Positions 9,700 to 16,107 of a stretch of 64,000 nucleotides of DNA are shown here, one piece after another; the first letter of the stretch is position 1; each line of letters starts with the position of its first letter. Below the pieces are notes generated by a model, which was given only the letters and a program-made list of their open reading frames with translations, did not search any database and was not told where the DNA came from. Source of the stretch: Alphaproteobacteria bacterium. GTDB lineage: Bacteria; Pseudomonadota; Alphaproteobacteria; SMXP01. A program made the position numbers and the translations under genes. The stretch is taken from assembly GCA_028285305.1 (NCBI GenBank), contig JANQPV010000014.1, forward strand, positions 124,001 to 188,000, read 5' to 3'.

Positions 9700-10947
9700 A
9701 TGGATCCAAGTGTAATCGCCGAGTTGGCGGACCCACAAGCGCAAGCAATTCGCGAGGCTTTGTGGTCCAATATCGTCGGATTGCCATTCGCTATAGCCAT
9801 CGCGATGCTCGTCGCGGGCACAATCCTCTTTATGTCGGGGCTTTCGCGGTTCGCAAGTGTGCCGTTTCTTGTCAGTGTTCTGGTCGTTACGCTCGGGACA
9901 ACGTTGCCGGAAATGATCCTTGTCGGTATCGCATCGCAAAATAATCTGTACGAGTCCGCCAACTTCTTTGAGTTGGTTGCTGGCTATAAAGCCAACATTC
10001 TGGCGTATGGAATCATAATAGGCAGTACGGCGATCAATCTCCTGTTCGTTATGCCAATTGCGCGATTTGCGCGATCTCTGGGAGGGAACAACTTCGTTGT
10101 CCGTTCAAGCGTGGTGTTTCGCGATGTTCTGTTTTTGATCGCCGCGACAATCATTCTTCTCGTCACTGCCTACACGCACGTAGATACTGTCGTTCCCGTC
10201 AATGTGGGGTGGCTGCTTATCGGCTTTTCGTTTGCTTACGTTGTAATATTGACGGCAACGGAGCGGCGCGGCACGAGCGGCGACTCCAATTATGGGCAGA
10301 CTTCTTCTACCGGCCCGAACATGCTGCTGATTTCGGCCGGTATTTTGATGGTAGGGATTGTCTCCTACTATCTTATTCAGAGTTTGGTGTTTCCGGCCAT
10401 CGATGGCTTGAGCTTGGAAATGCTCCAAAACGAAGATCTGGTGCGCGCCGAAATCTTTGGTCTTGGCTTCTTCATCGGATTCGTCGTGGCGATGCCGGAA
10501 TTGGTAAGCAGCATTTTCTATGCGCAAGATAAAAACTCGGGAACAGGCCTAACGACCGGCAATATCTTGACTGCGTGCATTCTGAATCTGTCCGTGGTTG
10601 CTGGACTGGGCATCATTATCGCAGATTTGTTTGGAGGCACGGACGTCAGAGGTGAAAAGATTGCGGTCTTCTTGGACTTTGATTTCCTGTTCCCGCACCT
10701 GTTCTTTATTTTGCTCGGCAGCATTTTGTTGTGGGTCTTTTTCCTCACAAGAGAGAAGAATGAGGCCGACCCGGAGCAATCGGGCGGTACTTTTTCCGTC
10801 GTGGAAGGTATGGTATTGATCGGATTGTTGCTGATCTATCTTTGTTACTTGATCGGCGCAGATTGGGCAGTCAGTTTGGTTCATGGAATCAGAGCCGCAA
10901 CAATATCGCTTTTGGATGTTGTTTTGGGGCTCTTTGGCCTTAACTAA
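9700..10947 (+). CDS. Sodium/calcium exchanger (CaCA) family antiporter
   Basis: 415-residue inner-membrane protein with about 10-11 hydrophobic segments in two homologous halves. Each half carries an alpha-repeat: VVTLGTTLPEMILVGIA with GSTAINLLFVMP in the first and GFVVAMPELVSSIF with GNILTACILNLSV in the second; the acidic residue in (L/M)PE is the cation-binding glutamate of the CaCA superfamily. The loop between halves (about 180-210) is hydrophilic. The sequence is divergent from the more canonical YrbG-like gene at 13415. It probably exports Ca2+ or another divalent cation in exchange for Na+ or H+. ATG at 9700 follows AAAGGGGGCG. The downstream secreted protein gene starts 54 bases after the stop. 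Confidence 0.82.
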   Translation: MDPSVIAELADPQAQAIREALWSNIVGLPFAIAIAMLVAGTILFMSGLSRFASVPFLVSVLVVTLGTTLPEMILVGIASQNNLYESANFFELVAGYKANILAYGIIIGSTAINLLFVMPIARFARSLGGNNFVVRSSVVFRDVLFLIAATIILLVTAYTHVDTVVPVNVGWLLIGFSFAYVVILTATERRGTSGDSNYGQTSSTGPNMLLISAGILMVGIVSYYLIQSLVFPAIDGLSLEMLQNEDLVRAEIFGLGFFIGFVVAMPELVSSIFYAQDKNSGTGLTTGNILTACILNLSVVAGLGIIIADLFGGTDVRGEKIAVFLDFDFLFPHLFFILLGSILLWVFFLTREKNEADPEQSGGTFSVVEGMVLIGLLLIYLCYLIGADWAVSLVHGIRAATISLLDVVLGLFGLN

Positions 10948-11001
10948 AAGGGCTATACTACCGGTGGGCTTGCGATTCGAACGAGCCTGCAATTCGGGTC
11001 G

Positions 11002-12564
11002 ATGGTGATGAGTGGCTTATACAGATTGAAAGAACGCTTACGGCGATCAGTCGTAGTGCTTGTGCTTGGTTGCTTTGCTGCCGCTGTGAGTTCACCGGCA
11101 GCAGCTAAGGACAATTCCGAGGGCGATGCCGAGTACTTCAAAAAAGTTTTTGCACAAAGCAATTCCGGTGAGGCAGCGGTAACCGAAGAACAAGACTCAG
11201 GTGCCCAAAACACGAACTCTGAAGACGTTGGAGCGAATTCGGGTGCGACTACACCCGGCGTGCAACAGGACGCCGCACCTACGCAAGTTGAGCCGGTTAA
11301 CGACGGCCGGGCGCTTGTGAAGAACGACAAGATTTTTGCAGATCCCAATAAAGATCAACATCCGGCAAAATGCAGTATACTGAGCGCCGATAGTTTTAGC
11401 TTTGCGGAACCCGTTGAAAATGCCGGCTGGCCCCTTATTCACGGTGTAGCTCTCGGGAACTCGCCAACTCAATTGATGGAACACCTTTCTCGGATGGTCC
11501 GAAAACTGCCGGCCGCGCGCGCCGAATTGCGTCAACGCTGCCCTTGGCTGGACGGACCGACGGCAGGCCGTTTGTTCCAAGCCGGCAAACAGTCTGCACG
11601 CGAATCTGACATTGTGCCGATTTTTCTGCGGACCGGCGACGGCGCAGGACCAACCATCCCCACGATCACGATTGAGTACACGCCGTGCACCCAGGTGATT
11701 GTTGATACGCGCGATTTCGTTCAGCAGGAATTAGACGCAGGCAGAATTCGAAAGGGCAGCGTTGAAGCAAAGGAAGACGAGAAGCTGTCAGAATACACTC
11801 CCAATAGCTTTGGAGAAGCTTGCATCGACCATATTTCTATCGAGAACTTTGTCCACGACCAATTCGCTGTGTATGCGCGGTACTATTTCCGGGAGTCCGC
11901 TCCAGGCAGCAAACCGAAGGGCAAGTCGTCAGGCAACGCGCAATGCCGCGCCTCGACCAACGGCTCTTATGGGGGCGCCGGGGGTCAAGAAGTTCACAAG
12001 ATCGAGTGGAAAACTCATTGGCCTGATTACGAAAAATGGCTCTATTTGGCCCGGAAGGACGTTGTCGGCTCCTTCAAGAAAGTTCTGGATGCGGGGAAAG
12101 CGCAGCGTGCGTCAGGTGTCTGGGCAGAGGGAAACACCAAAGTCAGATATAGATGGCTGGTGGACGAGAAGCAAAACGTCAGCCGGGGATCATTTAAGCA
12201 GATAACCGAATGGGCCGACTTCAAGAAGAGCTATTGCAAATGCGCCGCCGGCGACAAGAAGTGTTATTGTCGTGGTGATAGCGATATGCAGTTTGTGACC
12301 TTGGACGTGGGATATAATCCGACGGCGGAGGTCACCGTCTCCAAAGGACCCGAATACGAAGAGGCCTGGGAATATCTGCGGAACCGATTTGTGACTGAGA
12401 GAGTTTACAGTCAGCGTCGGGCTCGGTTTGACGACGCGCTCTTTCCTACCGGCGCTGCTTCCGCAAAATATGATCCGCAGGAAGACCCCAATTGCCGGCT
12501 CATGACACCGGTGGGGATTAAAAAAAAAGCAGTGAACGCAAAGTCTGCAAAGGAAACCAAATAG
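11002..12564 (+). CDS. Secreted protein of unknown function; probable N-terminal part of a split phosphatase protein
   Basis: 520 residues with a signal peptide (SVVVLVLGCFAAAVSSPAAA, cleavage near residue 36) and then a Ser/Glu/Thr-rich linker to about 110. I do not recognise the central region. A Cys cluster CKCAAGDKKCYC at about 411-422 looks like a metal or disulfide knot. ATG at 11002 or the in-frame ATG at 11008 could start it. Near the 3' end the frame crosses nine consecutive A's (12520-12528). In frame it continues only 11 codons to TAG; in the -1 frame it runs without a stop into the histidine phosphatase frame at 12615, which lacks a good start of its own. So this gene and the next may be one protein interrupted by a frameshift. 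Confidence 0.65.
   Translation: MVMSGLYRLKERLRRSVVVLVLGCFAAAVSSPAAAKDNSEGDAEYFKKVFAQSNSGEAAVTEEQDSGAQNTNSEDVGANSGATTPGVQQDAAPTQVEPVNDGRALVKNDKIFADPNKDQHPAKCSILSADSFSFAEPVENAGWPLIHGVALGNSPTQLMEHLSRMVRKLPAARAELRQRCPWLDGPTAGRLFQAGKQSARESDIVPIFLRTGDGAGPTIPTITIEYTPCTQVIVDTRDFVQQELDAGRIRKGSVEAKEDEKLSEYTPNSFGEACIDHISIENFVHDQFAVYARYYFRESAPGSKPKGKSSGNAQCRASTNGSYGGAGGQEVHKIEWKTHWPDYEKWLYLARKDVVGSFKKVLDAGKAQRASGVWAEGNTKVRYRWLVDEKQNVSRGSFKQITEWADFKKSYCKCAAGDKKCYCRGDSDMQFVTLDVGYNPTAEVTVSKGPEYEEAWEYLRNRFVTERVYSQRRARFDDALFPTGAASAKYDPQEDPNCRLMTPVGIKKKAVNAKSAKETK
12520..12528 (+). other. A9 homopolymer: possible slippage or frameshift site
   Basis: Nine A's in the codon series ATT-AAA-AAA-AAA-GCA near the end of the upstream frame. 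Slipping -1 here enters the frame read AGC-AGT-GAA-CGC, which is open through to the phosphatase motif at 12615 and its stop at 13151; the phosphatase frame has a TAA at 12519, immediately before the tract, and no ATG, GTG or TTG between the tract and 12615. Explanations: sequencing or assembly homopolymer error, a real inactivating mutation, or programmed transcriptional slippage. Confidence 0.6.
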
Positions 12565-12614
12565 CGGCTTGGCAGGCCTTACGGCAGACAGCCTCTGGAC
12601 GCAAAAGTGCCATC

Positions 12615-13151
12615 TTGTTGCTTCGGCACGGGGACGCGTTAAGCGTAAGCGATCCGGGCCTTATTCCTGCTCCCCTGTGCGATCAGCAAAACGCGACCAA
12701 TCCATTCGAGCGACACTGGATCTTGGCACCGGCAAATGGCAAAAACCCAAATGGAGTTGACGGAGCAAATCTAATAGCTCGTACTCTGAGTTCCGCCGAT
12801 CTTGGGGTAACCACACTCCTCTCAAGCGATGTGTGCCGGGCAAAGCAAACAGCGTCGGGCCTATCGGGTGAGGAGACGACGCCCTCTTTCACATCAGCCT
12901 TGGCCCCCGTGAAGGCCGGAGGATCGGCTAAGGAAAGCCACCAGCTTTTGGCAAGTACGCACAAATCCATGGAAGGCGGAACCCTTGTCGCCATCAGCCA
13001 TGCCGATCTGATGCCCAAGATCGCAAACGCGTTTGGCTACCAGCTTGAGCGCAAACTCGGCGCACATGACGGAGTGGTGTTCTCCTACGATACATCGAGT
13101 GCGGCATGGAGCTGTGCGGGCACCATTACCGATTGGTCGAAGCTGCGATAG
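12615..13151 (+). CDS. Histidine phosphatase (phosphoglycerate-mutase-like) domain, start uncertain
   Basis: 178 residues from a TTG at 12615. The frame begins inside the first beta-strand: the residues upstream without a start codon read SGRKSAI and then LLLRHGDA, the canonical RHG catalytic motif of histidine phosphatases. The second catalytic histidine is in VAISHADLMPKI (about residue 130), and LLSSDVCRAKQTA matches the conserved SxxxRAxQTA segment. Thus the domain is complete, but its natural N-terminus is not. There is only a weak ribosome binding site for the TTG. The open frame extends back to the A9 tract of the preceding gene; fusion to that secreted protein would make a periplasmic phosphatase. 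The substrate cannot be predicted. Confidence 0.65.
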   Translation: MLLRHGDALSVSDPGLIPAPLCDQQNATNPFERHWILAPANGKNPNGVDGANLIARTLSSADLGVTTLLSSDVCRAKQTASGLSGEETTPSFTSALAPVKAGGSAKESHQLLASTHKSMEGGTLVAISHADLMPKIANAFGYQLERKLGAHDGVVFSYDTSSAAWSCAGTITDWSKLR

Positions 13152-13414
13152 ACTTAGACGAGACCGCTTCCTGCGCACTCTTTAAGATCCTGTATTGTTG
13201 GCCGCCTTGGCTGCGCCGGCGAGGTTTCGCCCAGATTGTCCCCATCTGTTGCGGAGAGGATACAGGCGGGGCACAGTTGAGGTTGAAGGCCCGACTGAAC
13301 TGCGCCTTGTCCTTGCCATGTATGCTATCTTTCCGAGCCGATGGCCCGGCGGAGATGATGCCCGCAGAAGGCATCGTGTTGGGGTAAGCGAATTATTGGG
13401 GCCGGCTAAAGCTT

Positions 13415-14419
13415 ATGGGTTTTTTTGAACAAGATTGGGTCATCGCGCTTCAGCCCTTTGCGATCGGCTTTTTCCTGCTTCTCATCGGGGGAGAATTCCT
13501 CGTTCGCGGCGCGATCAGCATCGCCAACTATTTCTCGATCTCAAAGCTCTTTGTCGGCCTGCTGATCGTTTCAATCGGCACGTCCGCTCCTGAGTTCATT
13601 TTGGCGTTCGAGTCGATTAGACAATCGGCGTCGGATGTGGGTGTTGGTGTTGTTATTGGCAGTAGTCTGATCAATGTCTTGCTTTTGATGGGCCTGGCGG
13701 CCGTCCTCAGCCCCATCCTCATATCAGGCAATGCCATCATCAGAGACGGGGTCGCGCTCCTTCTCGCGGCGGGCGCACTGATTTGGAGCAGCTTGAATGA
13801 CGGCGACGTGTTGAGCGTCCGCGATGGCGGGTTTTTGCTGGGCGGCCTGGTGGTGTACGTCTATGTGTCATTTCTCATGGAACGCGGCGGAGACGGGGAT
13901 TTCAGCGGCGGCGGAGATGGCTCGCTTGTCAGCTTCATCCTGGGGCTCGTGTTCACCGGTCTGGGTGGTGCGGCCCTCTTTTTCGGGGCCGAGTATCTTA
14001 TCAATGCCTCAGTCGAAGTGGGGCGCGCTTGGTCTGGCGGCAGTAATGCGGTCCTCGGTCTGACCGTCCTTGCGTTCGGTACCGCCTTGCCCGAATTGGT
14101 CGCGATCACGGCCGCAGGCCTCAGGCGTCAAACCAACCTCATGGTCGGAACGTTGATGGGTGCGAGCATCATCAACATATTGGGTGTATTAGGCGGGGCG
14201 GCCGTTCTGACCCAGTTCTTCGGTCAAGCCGAAGCGATCAGTATTGCCGAAATCTTCCGCTACGATCTGTGGACCCTGTTCGCAGCTTCGGCCGTTCTAC
14301 TTCCGTTCATGACCACGGGTCAAACCGTGAGCCGATTGGAAGGCCTTGTTATGCTCCTGGCTTATGGCGCTTTCCTCTATTACGCGTTGGAGCGCCACCC
14401 CAGCTTGCCGGCGTTCTAG
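13415..14419 (+). CDS. YrbG-like sodium:calcium antiporter (CaCA family)
   Basis: 334 residues, the usual length for bacterial CaCA proteins, with 10 predicted membrane helices in two inverted halves. Alpha-repeat 1: GLLIVSIGTSAPEFILAF followed by VIGSSLINVLLLMG; alpha-repeat 2: GLTVLAFGTALPELVAI followed by LMGASIINILGVLGG. The GTSAPE and GTALPE motifs contain the glutamates that bind the cation. A Gly/Asp-rich loop (GGDGDFSGGGDG, about residue 155) joins the halves. Function: cation efflux at the inner membrane driven by Na+ or H+. It is the second CaCA gene here; the two flank the secreted phosphatase-like genes. Confidence 0.9.
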   Translation: MGFFEQDWVIALQPFAIGFFLLLIGGEFLVRGAISIANYFSISKLFVGLLIVSIGTSAPEFILAFESIRQSASDVGVGVVIGSSLINVLLLMGLAAVLSPILISGNAIIRDGVALLLAAGALIWSSLNDGDVLSVRDGGFLLGGLVVYVYVSFLMERGGDGDFSGGGDGSLVSFILGLVFTGLGGAALFFGAEYLINASVEVGRAWSGGSNAVLGLTVLAFGTALPELVAITAAGLRRQTNLMVGTLMGASIINILGVLGGAAVLTQFFGQAEAISIAEIFRYDLWTLFAASAVLLPFMTTGQTVSRLEGLVMLLAYGAFLYYALERHPSLPAF

Positions 14420-14445: not shown

Positions 14446-14479
14446 AACGATTCTGTCACAACCCACAGAAGAATTCTTG

Positions 14480-14503
14480 GGGAGAGGCTCCGCAGGCTCT
14501 CCC
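14480..14503 (+). terminator. Second hairpin between CaCA gene and phoR
   Basis: GGGAGAG (14480-14486) pairs with CTCTCCC (14497-14503) around GCTCCGCAGG; followed by ATTTCGC. Could terminate read-through from the antiporter gene or lie in the phoR leader. Confidence 0.4.
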
Positions 14504-14619
14504 ATTTCGCTATTGTCTTTCATGGGAAAGGGGGCCGCGACTCAAAATGCGGTGTCCCTGCCTATCCGATTTGGATATATGTGACACGTGAAATTACGGG
14601 CAATGGGCCCGACCAAGAT

Positions 14620-16107
14620 ATGCAATTTGTGCGATCCAAAACCTCACTCTTAAGCCCTCCTGCCATCGTGACAGTGGTTGGCCTTGGCTTAGTCACAGTT
14701 TTGACGGCAACGAATTTCGTAACTCTCACGGGAGGTATTGTTCTCGCCGCGTTTTGCGCTGCCGCAGCCTATTGGCTCGTCTCCCAAGCTGAACCACGCC
14801 GCGAAACGAAGGACGCAGAGATACCCGCTCAATCCGGCGCAACTTCCGATCCAGAGACGTTTGAGGGACTGGCAAGCCTTGCAATCGAACAAATGCCGGA
14901 TCCGGTTATTCTCCTTACAGACAAAGCGCAGGTTATACGGGCCAACAAGGCAGCAGCGCCCTACGTGGGTGAAGGCATAACAGGACAGCATATTTCGTCG
15001 GTCGTGCGCACGCCCGCCGTTCTCGACGCGATCTCTTCAACCCAGCAGGATGGAAACGAGAGAAGCGTTGACTACTCGATTTTTGCGCCCATAGAGCGGC
15101 ATCTGCGAGTCATGGTCGTGCCCGTGCATCCTTCGACCGCGAAGAGCGATGAGAACGGGCAGCCGGTAGATTCGCTCCTTGTGACCTTCCGGGATCTGAC
15201 GGCTGAAAAACGGACAGAGCAAATGCGCGCCGATTTTGTGGCGAATGCATCCCATGAGCTAAGGACGCCGCTTTCTTCCCTAAGCGGATATATTGAAACC
15301 CTGCGGGGTGCTGCAAAGGAAGATGCGCCCGCGCGGGAAAAATTCTTGGGGATTATGCAGGAGCAAGCGGACAGGATGCGGCGTCTCATTGAGGATCTCT
15401 TATCCCTGAGCCGCATTGAAATGAACGAGCATGTAGCGCCTACGGATGAAATTCGCTTGGTCGACTTGGTGAGAAACAGCATAACCGCTCTTTCTCCCGT
15501 TATGCTCGCACAAAACGTCAGAATCGAGATGAGCTTCGAGACCCGGCCATTGACGGATAACGATCGGGCTTTCGCCGACGAAATCCTCGGAGACCGGGAC
15601 GAACTTATTCAAGTCTTCCAAAACTTGATCGATAACGCGATCAAGTATGGACGCGAGCAGGGCGCTATTCATATTGACATTGGGAACGGTGTCCCGGGCA
15701 CGCCAACCGGTCCACAACGCAGCGACTCCGATAGATCTAATGTTGTGGAACTGGGTAAAGGCCGGGCCTCAAGCTCGTCGGCGGTCATGTATGTCAGTAT
15801 TCGCGACGAGGGGGAAGGCATTCCCAAAGAACACATTCCTCGTTTGACGGAACGATTTTACCGGGTTGATTCGAAATCCAGCATCAAAAAGGGAAGTACC
15901 GGGTTGGGTTTGGCCATTGTCAAACATATCGTCAACCGCCACCGGGGTTGGCTGACGATCGACAGCCAATTGGGTGAAGGAAGCACGTTCACAGTTTATT
16001 TGCCAAGGCGCCGGGAGGCGGTCCTACCAGGCGAGGCCGAAACTTCTCCAAGACTCGTCGAACTTAACATCGATCCGGCAAAATCTGAGGCAGCGACCAA
16101 CGCATAA
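14620..16107 (+). CDS. phoR: Phosphate regulon sensor histidine kinase PhoR
   Basis: 495 residues from the ATG at 14620, which places two membrane segments (about 15-32 and 36-53) right at the N-terminus, as in PhoR. A PAS domain covers about 85-190 (EQMPDPVILLTDKAQVIRA). The H-box VANASHELRTPLSSL has phospho-accepting His212; the N-box DNAIKYG is near 338, and GEGIPKEHIPRLTERFYRVD and GSTGLGLAIVKH are the F/G boxes. A Ser/Asp-rich insert sits between N and G boxes. PhoR senses Pst activity through PhoU and phosphorylates PhoB. The in-frame ORF extends upstream without a stop, but that part overlaps the antiporter gene. Followed by pstCAB-phoU-phoB, the common alphaproteobacterial order. Confidence 0.92.
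   Translation: MQFVRSKTSLLSPPAIVTVVGLGLVTVLTATNFVTLTGGIVLAAFCAAAAYWLVSQAEPRRETKDAEIPAQSGATSDPETFEGLASLAIEQMPDPVILLTDKAQVIRANKAAAPYVGEGITGQHISSVVRTPAVLDAISSTQQDGNERSVDYSIFAPIERHLRVMVVPVHPSTAKSDENGQPVDSLLVTFRDLTAEKRTEQMRADFVANASHELRTPLSSLSGYIETLRGAAKEDAPAREKFLGIMQEQADRMRRLIEDLLSLSRIEMNEHVAPTDEIRLVDLVRNSITALSPVMLAQNVRIEMSFETRPLTDNDRAFADEILGDRDELIQVFQNLIDNAIKYGREQGAIHIDIGNGVPGTPTGPQRSDSDRSNVVELGKGRASSSSAVMYVSIRDEGEGIPKEHIPRLTERFYRVDSKSSIKKGSTGLGLAIVKHIVNRHRGWLTIDSQLGEGSTFTVYLPRRREAVLPGEAETSPRLVELNIDPAKSEAATNA

Follow-up and report, generated by a model that had tools for sequence, protein, structure and literature searches.

Does a run of nine adenines (A9) near the end of an open reading frame (ORF) for a presumably exported protein mark the point at which a single gene has been broken into two frames? 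The question arises in a 5.4-Mb draft assembly (77 contigs, 95% complete), within a 64-kb stretch of DNA (contig positions 124001-188000) that was analysed as a whole and is called the window here. A first-pass annotation had proposed that the tract splits one secreted phosphatase gene, by error, mutation or programmed slippage. The features of the locus are collected in the table.

Features of the A9 locus (window coordinates)
Feature	Position	Strand	Basis or remarks
Upstream ORF, 520 aa	11002-12564	+	Start ATG 11002; alternative ATG 11008
Shine-Dalgarno (SD)-like CCGGTGGGG ahead of the tract	12507-12517	+	-6.7 kcal/mol (5% quantile of the background, -7.2); weak
A9 tract	12520-12528	+	Codons 507-509 (AAA AAA AAA) of the upstream ORF
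Interval open in both frames	12522-12564 (43 nt)	+	Translations of both frames
-1 frame, histidine-phosphatase-like, SixA/branch 1-like	12522-13151	+	Motifs, weak profile matches, hhalign
Candidate stem-loop	12543-12588	+	6-bp GTCTGC/GCAGAC base and inner pairs; weak
Rival start ATA with SD-like AAGGA	AAGGA 12550-12554, 6-nt spacer, ATA 12561-12563	+	Duplex -4.9 kcal/mol
TTG, first ATG/GTG/TTG of the -1 frame	12615-12617	+	MLLRHG; no Shine-Dalgarno

The geometry of the two frames was found to be as the first-pass annotation had described it. The nine A's lie exactly at the position it gave, and they are the sole homopolymer of nine within the window. Since dinucleotide shuffles of the window carry 1.64 such runs on average, the run by itself is not improbable. 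Beyond it the 0 frame continues for the predicted 11 codons, KKKAVNAKSAKETK, which could be a natural C-terminus, and then meets TAG at 12562-12564. The -1 frame has its last stop (TAA) at 12519-12521 and meets no further one until 13149-13151, so that a shift in the -1 direction does read without a stop into the phosphatase frame. As both frames are open together only in the 43-nt interval, the frame change is confined to it, and the A9 tract is located at its beginning. The computed -1 fusion product has 716 aa, close to the 720 or so residues that had been expected.

Both halves carry the character of coding sequence in their own frames. For the coding scores, 584 long ORFs from the same genome served to train a 3-periodic Markov model. 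The body of the upstream ORF scores +39 in its own frame compared with -201 and -144 in the others, and the -1 frame across it contains 24 stops in 500 codons. With the same model, the downstream region scores +8.8 in the -1 frame compared with -69 and -46 elsewhere; the other two forward frames over the phosphatase region contain 8 and 5 stops. The downstream frame is thus genuine coding sequence. In the junction itself (12529-12614), the codon signal of the 0-frame tail (+1.1) and of the -1 frame (-0.1) is too weak to favour either.

The N-terminus of the upstream ORF, MVMSGLYRLKERLRRSVVVLVLGCFAAAVSSPAAA followed by KD, resembles a Sec signal peptide when judged by eye, and the upstream or fused product is on this ground likely to be exported or periplasmic. 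No Pfam match was obtained for the ORF, and NCBIfam gave one chance match far under its cut-off. Judged by these profile searches, the sequence past the signal peptide is an orphan, of no known family.

In the -1 frame, the catalytic motifs of a histidine phosphatase are found in the expected order and intact across 209 codons: RHG at 12624, the Arg of SSDVCRAKQTA at 12837 and the His of ISHAD at 12999. These correspond to the RHG, second catalytic Arg and second catalytic His of branch 1 (PF00300), and the order is that of SixA/branch-1 phosphatases (PF00300, TIGR00249). The profile matches are weak: PF00300 is matched at E 0.0045 and 17.1 bits, under the curated cut-off of 21.7, and TIGR00249 (SixA) at E 3.7e-4 and 20.4 bits, under the NCBIfam cut-off of 74.5. 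A full-length hhalign match (probability 85%) was obtained against a profile in which Escherichia coli Ais is combined with 19 phosphatases encoded by related genomes, and BLASTP against E. coli Ais alone gave no significant alignment. AlphaFold models made without an alignment (pLDDT 39 and 32) were uninformative. On its motifs and profile matches, the downstream frame is histidine-phosphatase-like, of the SixA/branch 1 type, a description that stops short of membership in any named subfamily, SixA included; the intact motifs suggest phosphatase activity of this domain. Like exported Ais/PmrG, the frame has residues ahead of the first strand. Unlike the SixA/branch-1 proteins, it falls under the family cut-offs and is joined or adjacent to a 500-aa orphan region that is probably exported.

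Could the phosphatase frame be translated from a start of its own? The first ATG, GTG or TTG is indeed no earlier than TTG 12615, and it lies inside the first beta-strand, as had been claimed. Initiation there would truncate this strand and yield MLLRHG, with two residues between the initiator Met and the catalytic Arg of RHG, i.e. a start at distance 3. The comparison set was made up of 38 ORFs of the histidine-phosphatase type, drawn from related genomes and from E. coli, with starts taken at five or more residues from RHG. In 38 of 38 the start is at least six residues ahead of the catalytic Arg, seven being the commonest distance. By this comparison, the phosphatase frame is without a credible ATG, GTG or TTG of its own.

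A non-canonical start, which the first reading had overlooked, is provided by ATA 12561. This codon overlaps the stop of the upstream ORF as ATAG, is well spaced from AAGGA and stands 20 residues ahead of RHG, which leaves room for the first strand. The phosphatase may then be a separate gene of an operon, translated by termination-reinitiation at this ATA (or, less likely, at TTG 12615, where the first strand is cut and no SD is found), and the A9 tract a bystander. ATA is a permitted rare start in translation table 11, but it is very seldom used and initiates inefficiently. The AAGGA duplex falls between the 5% and 25% background quantiles, i.e. within ordinary background.

The place of the tract is rare in this genome. 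In 1.51 Mb, the longest A/T runs are of nine bases, and there are four of them. In ~1.55 Mb, 351 pairs of ORFs on the same strand have frames that are both open over a common stretch (200 nt or less); a run of at least nine falls within this overlap in a single pair, the one described here, and a run of at least seven in two. In 42 of the pairs, the first start in the downstream frame lies over 30 nt beyond the stop of the upstream ORF; the A9 pair is the only one of these with a run of at least seven. From the genome-wide density of runs, we estimate that ~0.05 such cases would be expected by chance over all pairs and <0.01 over the start-less pairs. Because the tract is the sole case among the 351 pairs at nine or more and among the 42 start-less pairs at seven or more, it is probably connected with the frame change. 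Reinitiation leaves this coincidence unexplained, and we consider a separate, reinitiated gene, the main competing reading, unlikely. All four of the nine-base runs in 1.5 Mb are A9 on the coding strand, the others being at L108:13800, L111:14499 and L084:4435. The organism tolerates A9 within a probably essential gene (lpxB, one of three intact conserved genes that carry the run).

The same survey bears on the quality of the assembly. Homopolymers are the commonest site of errors in tract length, singleton frame transitions are frequently errors (PMC3711429) and the downstream half is without decay; the gene may therefore be intact in the organism and the tract misread in sequencing or assembly. 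Against this, each of the remaining three A9/T9 runs falls within a gene of full length that matches a known family (lpxB, a dnaJ-like gene and a prim-pol primase gene). With these three included, some 20 A/T runs of 8-9 apart from the present one are found within long, uninterrupted ORFs; of ten tested against Pfam, nine matched known families (for runs of eight, six of the seven tested). The run-length distribution in the genome declines smoothly, and no other start-less junction in ~1.55 Mb has a run of seven or more. Since the other A9/T9 runs sit in intact genes, such runs do not seem to be a general weakness of the assembly, and an assembly-wide homopolymer error was largely rejected; a wrongly determined length of the A9 tract alone we regard as rather unlikely.

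Slippage at nine A's with nucleotide addition is established in bacteria (PMC1088944, PMC5009743, PMC5574713), and the first-pass annotation was right to name such homopolymers as known slippage sites. Selection acts against 9A runs in many genomes, and broken ORFs are restored by slippage at them (Baranov et al. 2005, PMC1088944). Insertions in E. coli transcription occur in A/T runs with an exponential rise with run length (PMC5574713), and in vivo slippage at runs of nine is reported to be efficient (PMC5009743). Ribosome sliding in vitro gave a truncated product with only three AAA lysine codons (PMC4363877). At the present locus, a run of nine lies in the frame overlap, and slippage there would lead to a longer product. 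The heptamer A AAA AAA, in the 0 frame at 12522-12528, conforms to the dnaX-type pattern X XXY YYZ.

The A9 tract may have been retained by selection for a set ratio of short and long exported proteins, through RNA polymerase slippage or through a -1 ribosomal shift at A AAA AAA aided by the SD-like element and the stem, in the manner of Thermus dnaX, Shigella mxiE or Citrobacter tssM. Recoding is known to occur at A9 and at A AAA AAA (PMC1088944, PMC3711429), and both halves look maintained. The SD-like CCGGTGGGG is a possible stimulator of -1 shifting, albeit a weak one. The stem-loop has a folding energy of -16.4 kcal/mol and z -1.95 with the window chosen, but z -0.13 across 12532-12612, so that the signal is lost in the wider window. 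Stimulators of the dnaX type consist of a stable structure ~5-9 nt downstream and an upstream SD. The stem begins 14 nt past the tract, too distant for a typical stimulator, and together the heptamer, the SD-like element and the stem make no convincing dnaX-type signal. Moreover, three ordinary, unbroken genes of the same genome contain A9, hence the tract alone is no mark of recoding. Programmed slippage is therefore improbable. That a selected A9 switch sets the share of an exported orphan protein bearing a C-terminal histidine phosphatase domain is very improbable.

Relatives of the two halves were sought widely. For neither half was a relative found in 60 related genomes, in the whole order (5 genomes), in 398 genomes of the phylum, on plasmids, or in two 8-mer scans of 85,000 GTDB species, and the phosphatase frame had none in 385 class genomes or viral contigs. 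Homologues of the two halves, fused or separate, were thus absent from the collections searched. Weak matches in three genomes (G037, G038 and G415) were set aside as chance-like, because they were weak and covered little length, and two carried internal stops.

With a probability of about one half, then, the locus represents a single gene that encodes an exported protein of ~716 residues and whose frame was broken at A9 by slipped-strand replication. This reading is favoured because each half has coding character in its own frame, the phosphatase lacks a usable start and an A9 tract falls in the required 43 nt. It is weakened by the failure to find a homologue, the neutral codon signal at the junction and the availability of ATA with AAGGA, and also by Pfam and SixA scores under their cut-offs and by the low pLDDT of the models. 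According to the authors of GeneTack, gene overlaps should account for about one third of orphan frame transitions, which speaks for reinitiation, and errors or indels for the rest (PMC3711429); our probabilities were moved from this prior because the phosphatase frame lacks a credible start and the A9 coincides with the frame change. The first-pass proposal thus stands as far as the split is concerned, with a coding downstream frame bearing histidine-phosphatase motifs, no credible ATG, GTG or TTG and a rare A9 inside a short frame-change interval; among the causes it offered, a general homopolymer error is argued against and programming is improbable.

Under the single-gene reading, 11002-12519 and 12522-13151 would be two halves of a gene whose full protein comprises a signal peptide, a low-complexity stretch, the orphan domain and a C-terminal histidine-phosphatase-like domain. 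A change in the length of A9 by slipped-strand replication, recent or reversible, would have broken the frame. As sequenced, most translation would stop 11 codons past the tract and give the 520-aa protein without the phosphatase. Some full-length protein would be expected as a minority product, since slippage joins the frames, either by RNA polymerase inserting an A or by a -1 step of the ribosome on AAA AAA AAA. Phase variation at A9 is possible.

This arrangement has parallels in known systems. In the genes with 9A/9T slippage described as 'pseudo pseudogenes' (PMC1088944), an ORF is likewise broken at a run of nine A's and slippage restores the longer frame; those genes were backed by homologues with a continuous frame, ORFans being set aside, whereas no such homologue was found here. 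Citrobacter rodentium tssM1 (PMC4256274) likewise has poly-A shortly before a stop and a C-terminal domain in another frame that is reached via added A's. It differs in having 11 A's, intact relatives, and RNA and protein measurements. Thermus thermophilus dnaX and Shigella mxiE share the tract length and the type of event considered here, and in both slippage has been experimentally shown to occur and to be functional. The templated A9 of dnaX gives the long product, whereas the templated A9 here would give the short one, as in mxiE.

If the locus is one gene, automated annotation would record an orphan protein cut short and would overlook an exported phosphatase or give it a wrong start. Should slippage be in use, the locus would join the small number of chromosomal, non-mobile genes known to make two products from a 9A run, and a selected switch, if real, would be a chromosomal, non-mobile and non-virulence instance of programmed transcriptional slippage. 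At present the case amounts to a small point of annotation and a candidate for slippage, A9 slippage itself being well documented in bacteria.

The locus has a Na/Ca exchanger and PhoR/Pst phosphate genes as neighbours. The block 9700-13151 consists of three successive genes without close relatives in the class, namely a Na/Ca-exchanger-type protein, the orphan, putatively exported protein and the phosphatase frame; it is flanked by a Sel1-repeat gene on one side and the exchanger/PhoR/Pst group on the other. The sole related genome with a matching neighbourhood, G002 of the same family, has a beta-helix gene, the Sel1 gene, the exchanger and PhoR in the same order and lacks the block. For the exchanger at 9700-10947, examined as a route to synteny, no relative was found at E 1e-15 among 308 class genomes. 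Scans for promoters and terminators gave results no better than shuffles. Elsewhere in the assembly, a C10 run at L121:14252 lies between a PBP4-like D-Ala-D-Ala carboxypeptidase gene (ORF 12449-14014, minus strand) and the ORF 14455-14937; this intergenic run is possibly a promoter-region tract of variable length.
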